From the NCBI RefSeq assembly GCF_012911975.1, contig NZ_SMDQ01000037.1, positions 1-54,374 on the forward strand: a stretch of DNA of 54,374 nucleotides. Reading direction: 5' to 3'. The translations under genes were made by a program, and so were the position numbers. This stretch comes from Nodosilinea sp. P-1105. Lineage in GTDB: Bacteria; Cyanobacteriota; Cyanobacteriia; Phormidesmidales; Phormidesmidaceae. Shown one piece after another: positions 21,096 through 24,170 of the stretch. The notes beneath the pieces are model-generated. The model saw only the letters and a list, made by a program, of their open reading frames with translations. It did no database searches and was not told the DNA's origin. Numbering within the stretch: the first letter of the stretch is position 1; the number at the start of each line of letters is the position of its first letter.

Positions 21096-24000
21096 GTGGC
21101 GTCTAACTATAGCCCCGCAGACATCGAGAAAAAATGGCAACAGGTTTGGGCTGAACAAGGGCTAGACCAGGCCGTGGAAAATGCAGACCAGCCGAAGTTT
21201 TATGCCCTGTCGATGTTCCCCTACCCCTCCGGGAACCTGCACATGGGCCATGTGCGTAACTACACCATTACCGACGTGATTGCCCGGGTGCGGCGAATGC
21301 AGGGCTACCGGGTGTTGCACCCCATGGGCTGGGATGCCTTTGGCTTACCGGCGGAGAACGCCGCCATTGATCGGGGGATTCACCCTGCGAAGTGGACCTA
21401 CGAAAACATTGACCAAATGCGATCGCAGCTACAAGAGCTCGGTCTGTCCTACGATTGGGACCGAGAGGTGGCCACCTGTGCCCCCGACTATTACCGCTGG
21501 ACCCAGTGGATCTTTATCCAAATGCTGGAGATGGGGCTGGCTTACCAAAAAGAAGCCGCCGTCAACTGGGACCCCATCGACCAAACCGTACTGGCCAACG
21601 AACAGGTGGATAGTGAGGGACGTTCCTGGCGATCGGGAGCCCTGGTGGAGAAAAAACTGCTGCGCCAGTGGTTTTTAAAAATTACAGACTACGCCGAAGA
21701 ACTGCTGCAGGATCTGGATAAACTGCCGGGCTGGCCCGAGCGGGTGCGAACCATGCAGGCCAACTGGATTGGTAAGTCCACTGGTGCTCAGGTGGTGTTT
21801 ACCACCGAAGCGGGGGATGACCTGCCGGTGTTTACCACCCGCCCCGATACCCTCTGGGGGGCTACCTTCATGGTGCTATCCCCAGAGCATCCCCTGGTGG
21901 AAAAACTTACCTCCCCCGATCGCGTGGCCACCGTCGACGACTACCGCAAGGAAGCCGCCGCTAAAAGCGACATCGACCGCACCGCTGAGGATCGAGAGAA
22001 AACCGGGGTATGGACCGGAAGCTATGCTGTGAACCCGGTGAATGGGGCCAAAATTCCCATCTGGATTGCCGACTATGTGCTGATGGGCTACGGCACCGGG
22101 GCAATTATGGCAGTGCCCGCCCATGACCAGCGGGACTTTGAATTTGCCCGCAAGTTTGACCTACCGGTGACGGTGGTGGTGCAGCCAGAGGGAGAAACCC
22201 TGGCGGGCGATACCCTGACAGCGGCCTGGCCCGGTGAGGGGGTGATGGTTAATTCAGGTCCCCTGGATGGGGTTCCCGCTGGCAAAGGGGACGGGCAGAG
22301 CGTGGCGGCGGCCATTCAGTGGCTGGAAGCCAATGGCAAGGGCCACGGGGAAGCCAACTACCGTCTGCGGGACTGGCTAATTTCCCGTCAGCGCTATTGG
22401 GGGGTACCGATTCCGGTGGTGCACTGCGACGAGTGCGGCATTGTGCCGGTGCCCGATGACCAGCTGCCGGTCACCCTGCCGGAAGATGTGGAATTTTCGG
22501 GGCGGGGGGCGTCCCCCCTGGCCCAGCTAGAGCATTGGGTGAATGTGCCCTGCCCCACCTGTGGTCGCCCGGCCCGGCGGGAAACCGACACCATGGACAC
22601 GTTTATTGATTCCTCCTGGTACTTTCTGCGCTACGCCGATGCCCAAAACCCAGACCAGGTCTTTGACCCGGCTAAGGCCAATGACTGGATGCCGGTGGAT
22701 CAGTATGTGGGGGGGATTGAGCACGCGATTCTGCACCTGCTGTATTCCCGGTTTATTACCAAGGTGCTGCGCGATCGCGGCCTGCTGACCTGTGATGAAC
22801 CCTTCCAGCGGCTGCTGACCCAGGGCATGGTGCAAAATGTCACCTACAAAAACCCCAAGACCGGCAAGTATGTGGTGATAGACGCGATCGCCGATCCCCA
22901 AAACCCCGTAGACCCCGAGACCGGCGATGCCCTCCAGGTGTTCTACGAAAAAATGTCCAAGTCCAAGTACAACGGCGTGGACCCCAAAGCGGTGTTGGCC
23001 AAGTACGGTGCCGACACCGCCCGCATGTTCATTCTGTTTAAGGCCCCCCCGGAAAAGGATCTGGAGTGGGATGATGCCGATGTGGAAGGGCAGTTTCGCT
23101 TTTTGAATCGAGTTTGGCGATTGGTGACGGACTTTGTTGAGCGTCGATTAGTTGAGTTTCCTCTACGTCAAGCCTTGAGCCTTGATAATCGTAAGTATGG
23201 GTTGAAGAAAGAGATTCTAGCCCCTACGCTGGAAGACCCCAATGACCTATTGTGCCTTTTGATTCCAGTTCTAGATCTGGATTTGCTATGCATTAGGCAA
23301 GTCTTTCAGACGTGTGAAGAGTTAAATGCTGAAAAGATCGGCATAATGCTTCGTAGAACCCAAAGCTTCTCTGACGAGCTACTAGAGTCTCATTCTGATG
23401 ATGATATTCAAAAGGGAGTTACTTGTAGGAATTTGTTGGCTTTGCCTTATATCTTCCGTGAAGAAGGTGAAGCAGCGTGGGGAGATACTGTGGATAAGCA
23501 GCATATTCTCTTCTCTGATGATCTCCAACCCGAAGGTCTATTAAGTAAGCTTCAAGACTGTGAACCTCAGCGTAAACGAGTCGATGATGAAGTTCAGTTC
23601 CAAGCTGGTATGGATGTTTTAGACACTCTGTGCTCTATTTTCGGTATGGGGCCGCAACAAATGGCCTCTGGAGAAACGAAGACAGAAAAAACCCTGCGCC
23701 GGGCCATCCACACCGCCATCCAGGCTATCACCGAAGACATCGATGGCGACTACCAGTTCAATACCGCCGTATCGGAACTGATGAAGCTGAGTAACGCCCT
23801 GAATGACGCCGACTGCCAGAACTCCCCAGTCTACAGCGAAGGCATTCGCACCCTGGTGATGCTGCTGGCTCCCTTTGCCCCTCATATCGCCGATGAACTC
23901 TGGCACCAACTCGGCCATTCAGACTCGGTACACCGGGCCCCCTGGCCGGTGTTTGACCCCAGTGCCCTGGTGGCCGATGAAATCACTCTGGTGATTCAAA

Positions 24001-24170
24001 TCATGGGCAAAACCCGGGGCACCCTGGAAGTGCCCGCCGACTCGGACAAAGCCGCCCTGGAACAATATGCCCGGGAATCGGACATTGCCAAAAAGTACAT
24101 TGACGGCAAAGTGATTAAAAAGGTGATTGTGGTGCCGGGCAAGCTGGTGAATTTTGTGCTTGCCAAGTAA
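21096..24170 (+). CDS. leuS: Leucyl-tRNA synthetase with a large linker insertion
   Basis: 1024 residues, against roughly 850-870 in most cyanobacteria. Class I synthetase that charges tRNA-Leu. HIGH-type motif [15 protein letters not shown] (about 38-52), the CP1 editing domain ([23 protein letters not shown], then [18 protein letters not shown]), zinc-binding cysteines (CDECGI, CPTCGRP), KMSKS motif ([13 protein letters not shown]) and the C-terminal anticodon-binding region ([15 protein letters not shown]) are intact. Between LVTDFV (to about 681) and [11 protein letters not shown] (from about 865) lies an in-frame insert of about 180 residues. GTG start at 21096 with a GGAG eight bases upstream. 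Confidence 0.95.
23139..23681 (+). other. In-frame insert in leuS (about 180 codons)
   Basis: Sits between the catalytic core and the anticodon-binding domain, where relatives have a linker of perhaps 15 residues. Base composition changes: four 60-base lines inside (23161, 23341, 23401, 23461) have 37-47% G+C by my count, two lines of flanking leuS (22561, 23881) have 60-62%. The protein segment is acidic and helical in look, with two Leu-rich stretches ([17 protein letters not shown]) broken by Asp and several Cys. I recognise no domain in it. The frame is open throughout, so it is presumably translated. Confidence 0.85.

Follow-up and report, generated by a model that had tools for sequence, protein, structure and literature searches.

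The leucyl-tRNA synthetase (LeuRS) gene of Nodosilinea sp. P-1105 carries a low-G+C coding segment in place of the linker that precedes the anticodon-binding helices, and profile comparisons indicate that this segment is homologous to the N-terminal domains of NERD+UvrD-type helicases. The history that we consider probable, with considerable reserve, is a single capture of the NERD domain of a cyanobacterial NERD-UvrD helicase into leuS, followed by loss of catalysis and spread by recombination, with the module now a tolerated passenger or a docking surface. The window analysed is a contig of 54,374 nucleotides (NZ_SMDQ01000037.1). Copies of the insert are compared from P-1105 (G000, the genome of the window), Nodosilinea sp. 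LEGE 07088 (G015) and G075, a genome of another genus in the same family. The features concerned are as follows.

21096..24170, + strand: leuS, leucyl-tRNA synthetase, 1024 aa, GTG start; open reading frame without an internal stop, matching TIGR00396 at 1174 bits.
23103..23135, + strand: 11 conserved leuS codons with low-GC synonymous choices directly before the insert, from the GC3 of 20-codon windows; a possible, weakly indicated recombination edge.
23139..23681, + strand: insert taking the place of the ordinary leuS linker, delimited by composition and linker comparison.
23148..23576, + strand: putative degenerate NERD-like (PD-(D/E)XK-type) domain within the insert; the helicase profile aligns over 23388-23576, the first part is placed via the G075 copy and the fold is of low confidence.
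23289..23297, + strand: Cys-Ile-Arg where most helicase domains have Glu-x-Lys (putative lost catalytic motif), placed by aligning G075 with the helicase profile and the window with G075; alignment-dependent by two residues.

An earlier note on this sequence had described a large in-frame insert of foreign composition before the anticodon-binding domain of LeuRS, and both descriptions hold. The gene runs through 1024 codons with no stop, and the insert has 44.0% G+C and a GC3 of 39%, versus 59.2% and 71% for leuS upstream of it; 180-base windows within the insert lie mostly at 40-45% G+C. All three copies are low in G+C (42-44%, GC3 36-39%), with a GC3 of 71-80% in the upstream leuS. The distribution of stop codons marks the segment as coding: there is none in the leuS frame of any of the three copies, against 10-25 in the other two forward frames (11 and 25 in the copy of the window).

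With the same anchors on either side, linker length is 202 aa in P-1105 and 209 aa in LEGE 07088; of 28 other loci measured, all without the insert, 25 have linkers of 33-60 aa. The remaining three loci lack an anchor and have linkers of 28-31 aa with different anchors, for which the insert-free range is 19-46 aa. The native linker has been replaced and not merely interrupted, so that the net foreign part is about 165 codons. In addition, GC3 is already low in about 11 conserved leuS codons ahead of the insert. In the 20-codon windows overlying 23103..23135, GC3 is 0.4-0.5, versus 0.70-0.87 in the insert-free genome G013, and codons 666-680 of the leuS of the window have their best match (0.91) in a row outside the genus (codon numbers in the GC3-window and mosaic comparisons count the open frame; the LeuRS residue is the codon number minus 4). 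As a recombination edge at the window this stretch of about 11 codons is a weak hint.

The insert lies between a conserved helix and the helix EKTLRRAIH, at a site equivalent by alignment to approximately residues 698-717 of Thermus thermophilus LeuRS (1h3n). The Pfam Anticodon_1 match begins just after the insert site, at 865 in the LeuRS of the window and at 703 of the scanned stretch in G013. Both the editing and the anticodon domains are present according to Pfam, and the enzyme is predicted to be active. A single LeuRS is found in the draft P-1105 genome at E ≤ 1e-20; since no other LeuRS is found in the cell, tRNA must be charged by the enzyme that carries the module.

That draft genome consists of 195 contigs and has an estimated contamination of 3.71%, features that could lend some weight to an assembly or annotation artefact, or to chance low-GC drift of an ordinary linker. 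However, a homologous insert occupies the same place in G075 and in LEGE 07088, an independently assembled genome with a copy about 60% identical to that of the window, which speaks against the assembly or frame error that the earlier note had raised as a doubt. The frame is open in all three copies and the profile matches described below are far above those of shuffled sequences. We regard the probability of an artefact or of drift as negligible.

No Pfam, NCBIfam or PADLOC model matches the copy of the insert in the window, and a search by sequence of the PDB returned nothing for the insert profile and nothing for a helicase. Searched over 388 genomes sampled from the class, a profile built from the three inserts gave 24 weak matches outside LeuRS, with E from 2e-7 to 8e-3. 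Of these, 21 carry one domain type with an (E/K)PDIL signature, followed in most by E-x-K (L068 and L069 are unrelated and the domain of L052 was missed in extraction). The (E/K)PDIL domains are mostly N-terminal in longer proteins with a GxGKT motif. Two such proteins scanned in full, L049 and L050, have matches to UvrD_C_2 and STM2767-helicase, none of which reaches its curated cut-off. They are the two of three proteins scanned that match the PADLOC system 'NERD+UvrD'; the third, L059, lacks a helicase part and is not matched by PADLOC. L059 (L059:1192-2703, + strand, in G044) is a 503-aa protein with the same NERD-like N-terminal domain, a middle part that looks hydrophobic on visual inspection, and a C-terminal region in which DUF559 matches weakly, below the cut-off.

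A second profile was made from 18 of the 21 domains (L063, L067 and L071 left out), with the inserts excluded. Searched over the 63 genomes of the family, it recovered the inserts of G075 (E 1.6e-9, 42.9 bits), P-1105 (1.8e-6, 29.8 bits) and LEGE 07088 (1.9e-6, 29.8 bits), together with eight places outside the LeuRS inserts; shuffled inserts reached at most 8.5 bits (4476 of 6000 shuffles scored). Alignment of the inserts with the helicase domains by hhalign gave 97.5% (E 5e-12, 59 columns). The reverse search is not fully independent, since its 18 domains were first found with the insert profile, and homology of the inserts to NERD-type domains is supported by the shuffle control and by a link to Pfam NERD. 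This link arises because the 18-domain profile matches the helicase of P-1105 itself at 4.3e-9, and Pfam NERD (PF08378) matches the same helicase at 4.2e-13; PF08378 has no direct match in the inserts or in four helicase-type proteins scanned. The P-1105 protein (L095:930-2786, contig C33) is a NERD-UvrD helicase with the motif PDF..EVK and is only distantly related to the LeuRS insert. The earlier note could name no domain in the insert; this remains true of direct Pfam and NCBIfam matches in the copy of the window, but not of its affinity with NERD-type nuclease domains. With the helicase profile only residues 86-148 of 186 of that copy align, and the G075 copy aligns over profile positions 29-186. 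The helicase N-terminal domains have a G+C content of 0.32-0.46 in 16 of 18.

Several other matches were rejected. Five weak PDB rows for the helicase N-domain profile look unrelated (E ≥ 0.033), PHROGs rows (E 0.4 and 0.11) were taken as chance, and so were YcaO-type matches in the G075 copy (E 0.12 and 0.026), which lie far below their cut-offs.

The position of the E-x-K motif is occupied by Cys-Ile-Arg in P-1105 and LEGE 07088 and by Asn-Ile-Lys in G075. A gap-free alignment instead places Arg-x-Val, Arg-x-Val and Lys-x-Val, respectively, at this position, and neither alignment gives E-x-K. The position of the catalytic aspartate is occupied by Leu, Val and Glu in P-1105, LEGE 07088 and G075, respectively, and the stretch following the E-x-K motif is shortened in the inserts relative to the helicase domains. 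Given the absence of D..E-x-K, the insert would be a NERD derivative and not a recognisable active nuclease, and the loss of E-x-K suggests that no cleavage is to be expected from it. The D..E-x-K motif is intact in 11 of the 18 helicase domains. The other seven have a degenerate D..E.K as well, so the active site may have started to decay before the domain was captured. The loss of E-x-K in those seven NERD-like N-terminal domains (L049, L053, L054, L059, L060, L062 and L064) suggests that nuclease activity has been lost repeatedly in this NERD-helicase family.

An AlphaFold2 (AF2) model of the insert calculated from two sequences has a mean pLDDT of 54.6, with block means of 52-87 over residues 51-140; a further model, with the LEGE 07088 copy as its lead sequence, had a mean pLDDT of 41.8 and was too poor to search. 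The top rows of VIA-align for the first model are Cdn1, Can2, Bax1, VC1899 and Shedu (Z 5.8-4.6), with unrelated rows from Z 4.2 down; none reaches a Z of 8, and values under 8 may reflect a common arrangement. We take at least eight of the top nine rows, including these five, to be PD-(D/E)XK nucleases. Foldseek gave no significant match with the insert model (all E ≥ 0.18). The low-confidence fold therefore leans towards PD-(D/E)XK nucleases, as the sequence does, without carrying the case. In comparison with NERD-UvrD helicases (PF08378; PADLOC PDLC01087 'NERD+UvrD'), the likeness consists of the sequence homology of the three inserts, their low G+C content and the lean of the fold model. 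They differ in that the insert sits in LeuRS, lacks E-x-K, has a shortened post-motif stretch and has no direct Pfam NERD match.

CAAD is a membrane-anchoring CURT1-type domain that ties synthetases to thylakoids. Inserts of this domain are described in cyanobacterial aminoacyl-tRNA synthetases (PMC4893482). The LeuRS insert is unlike them in having no CAAD/CURT1 homology; Pfam searches with E up to 10 gave no CAAD match in any of the three copies, in agreement with the earlier note, which had set CAAD aside. By a Kyte-Doolittle hydropathy scan, the most hydrophobic 19-residue window scores 1.91 in P-1105 and 1.96 in LEGE 07088, values that are not low, although two Asp and one Arg residue lie within each of these windows, and 0.78 in G075.

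A search of 57 genomes (P-1105 and its relatives) with the insert gave one strong match outside P-1105, that of LEGE 07088 (61%, E 1.7e-63), in leuS and at the same place; nine other rows had E ≥ 0.07. A two-row profile searched over the 63 genomes of the family added G075, again in leuS (E 2.8e-20). The insert is thus present in three of 63 family genomes, each time in leuS at the same site, and most close relatives do not have it, the comparison that the earlier note had proposed. The order-level search took in the same 63 genomes, and the three-row profile found no further leuS insert in the 388-genome class sample. Absence cannot be claimed for every genome, since G004 has no leuS match at all and a few leuS genes are fragmentary.

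Outside these samples, a tblastn comparison with plasmids and phages gave no match at E ≤ 1, and a search of a contig-level genome database returned one relative, LEGE 07088. In IMG/VR, 548 stretches matched a pattern, none of which encodes a relative of the insert, and a helicase query gave no pattern match. A donor search of a second class sample from another centre, a largely overlapping draw, gave matches at 1e-5 in two of 387 genomes, one of them a LeuRS insert. The same search in two families was empty (f15, 0/42 at 1e-6; f24, 0/36), an outcome that alone is not proof of absence, and the class and family searches found no insert-bearing donor leuS. Among titles and the beginnings of abstracts, no report of a LeuRS insert was found, nor was one found for 'NERD domain' together with 'tRNA synthetase'.

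In a LeuRS tree calculated without the insert columns, P-1105 groups with G013, its closest LeuRS relative, which lacks the insert (support 100/99), LEGE 07088 with G008 (94/91) and G075 with G032 (91/73). The hosts of the inserts are not monophyletic and three changes of insert state are needed. In a NERD-domain tree of 28 rows (18 helicase domains, three inserts and seven reverse-search matches, with L104 and the LeuRS rows set aside), the three inserts are monophyletic (100/99), and the branch leading to them is long (2.62). Their clade lies inside a group of class-wide helicases (90/99, at a fork not starred), apart from the NERD helicase of the host genome. The P-1105 and LEGE 07088 inserts are 60% identical, versus 84% for the LeuRS flanks.

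Identity along leuS is locally low near two of the inserts. Directly after the insert of G075, codons 869-943 have at best 0.64-0.78 identity to any row, with a GC3 of 0.20-0.27 in the first 30 codons, and from codon 959 on identity is again 0.84-0.91. The best matches of this tract elsewhere are at 77-83%, in several families and in two genomes of one genus of the same family (83%). A distant low-GC donor is not established for it, since the most similar leuS loci have 0.36-0.53 G+C and two of them are in the same family at 83%. The G075 genome is 61% complete, and its leuS has other low-identity windows at codons 511-540 (0.76) and 591-620 (0.74). These identities mark a foreign leuS tract directly downstream of the G075 insert.

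In LEGE 07088, codons 591-635, about 35 codons upstream of the insert, have 0.60-0.71 identity to genus mates and 0.73-0.84 outside the genus; the best matches of this tract are other genera at 78%, with no other member of the genus at E 1e-12. No 30-codon window falls below 0.75 in 21 of 24 rows of the genus, the exceptions being LEGE 07088 with four, L036 with five (lowest 0.71) and L024 with one. The tract shows the LEGE 07088 leuS to be a mosaic. Codons 651-680, which separate this foreign tract from the insert, again resemble the genus (0.91-0.96), so the tract and the insert need not have arrived together.

The three copies could instead be vertical relics of a NERD-derived module that leuS already carried in the ancestor shared by the family and that was lost on many later occasions. 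The monophyly of the copies would fit such a history, losses from a linker are easy, the three changes on the tree may be one gain and two losses, and the LEGE 07088 codons beside the insert are genus-like. However, a GC3 of 36-39% would have to persist while that of the upstream leuS is 71-80%, and G013, the well supported sister of P-1105, is without the insert. The divergence of the P-1105 and LEGE 07088 inserts relative to their flanks and the foreign tract adjoining the G075 copy also weigh against vertical descent, which we consider unlikely. Trees, composition and tracts together favour transfer of an insert-bearing leuS segment by recombination.

The pattern of spread reads as intein-like, but without splicing or homing. 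As with inteins and homing-endonuclease elements, the insert occurs patchily at one site of a conserved gene and its phylogeny is unlike that of its hosts, and the foreign host-gene tract beside the G075 copy resembles co-conversion. The insert nevertheless lacks a splicing domain (no Hint match in Pfam or NCBIfam for any of the three copies), an intact nuclease motif and an exact insertion between two host residues, the native linker being replaced and not split between two conserved residues. Its homology is to NERD-type helicase domains instead. An intein or other self-removing element is accordingly a very improbable explanation.

From these comparisons we infer a single capture, the kind of donor, the recombination route, the fold, the lack of cleavage and the role of the module as follows. 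A cyanobacterial NERD-UvrD helicase would have supplied the insert from its N-terminal NERD-type (PD-(D/E)XK) domain, in a single in-frame capture by a leuS gene. The capture would have taken place in the surface linker of that gene, and the recipient was probably a cyanobacterium of lower G+C content. The captured domain would then have lost its catalytic residues, and the insert-bearing leuS segment would have entered at least three lineages by homologous recombination across the conserved leuS flanks. The module most likely forms a lobe of its own that does not cut and that may be a tolerated passenger or a docking surface. Among the origins offered by the earlier note, a captured gene piece gains support from the helicase NERD-domain homology; the recurrence of the insert in two other species had been missed.

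The dN/dS ratio of the insert between P-1105 and LEGE 07088 is 0.26 by NG86 (bootstrap 0.15-0.41) and 0.37 by YN00, versus 0.094 for the LeuRS flanks of the pair. The insert thus appears to be constrained, but less than the enzyme, and part of the constraint may date from donor lineages. A functional accessory domain under selection, in which a dead NERD lobe links LeuRS to another process by binding either nucleic acid or a protein partner, is possible but doubtful; it is compatible with the capture favoured here and is an alternative only to a passenger. The NG86 ratio and the open frame kept in three copies are consistent with such a domain, the seven of 18 helicase N-terminal domains without an intact D..E.K suggest that a noncatalytic role may be common, and CAAD is a precedent in the same enzymes (PMC4893482). 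On the other hand, the purifying signal may stem from donor lineages, the YN00 ratio is higher, constraint is weaker than in the flanks, the insert is rare (3/63) and has no known motif, and its net charge of -8 to -14 argues against simple nucleic-acid binding. A tolerated passenger is slightly ahead of a selected docking module. A more speculative thought, and a long shot, is that the synthetase serves as the vehicle of a non-splicing, non-homing piece of a dead defence helicase, spread purely by leuS allele exchange, which couples LeuRS to nucleic-acid or phage-defence state via the NERD fold.

Insertions of domains into essential translation enzymes are usually old by the time they are observed. 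In this case three copies still reveal the family of origin, the site of insertion, the degeneration of the active site and indications of lateral spread. The insert is a second example, unrelated to CAAD, of a foreign module in cyanobacterial synthetases. As an accessory domain inserted in a synthetase it is real, can be assigned to a family and has a transfer history that is legible in part.

Two observations concern other leuS genes. The insert-free linkers contain a small in-frame inverted repeat in 17 of 28 cases (for example L016, L026, L031, L035 and L040). Its form is GGGCGAAC..GTTCGCCC, the arms measuring 7-12 bases, and L026 has two copies; it resembles a REP-type element. The arms vary by species yet stay complementary (GGGCGCAC/GTGCGCCC, GGGCAAAC/GTTTGCCC and GGGCAAAT/ATTTGCCC). 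The idea that the insert grew out of such palindromes was dropped, the pattern being absent from the window (one mismatch allowed) and from the P-1105 genome (exact). In G016 (C348:4840-7400), leuS is split into three parts, of which the first and second overlap but differ in frame; one TAG lies within the first match, and this may reflect a sequencing error or a broken gene.
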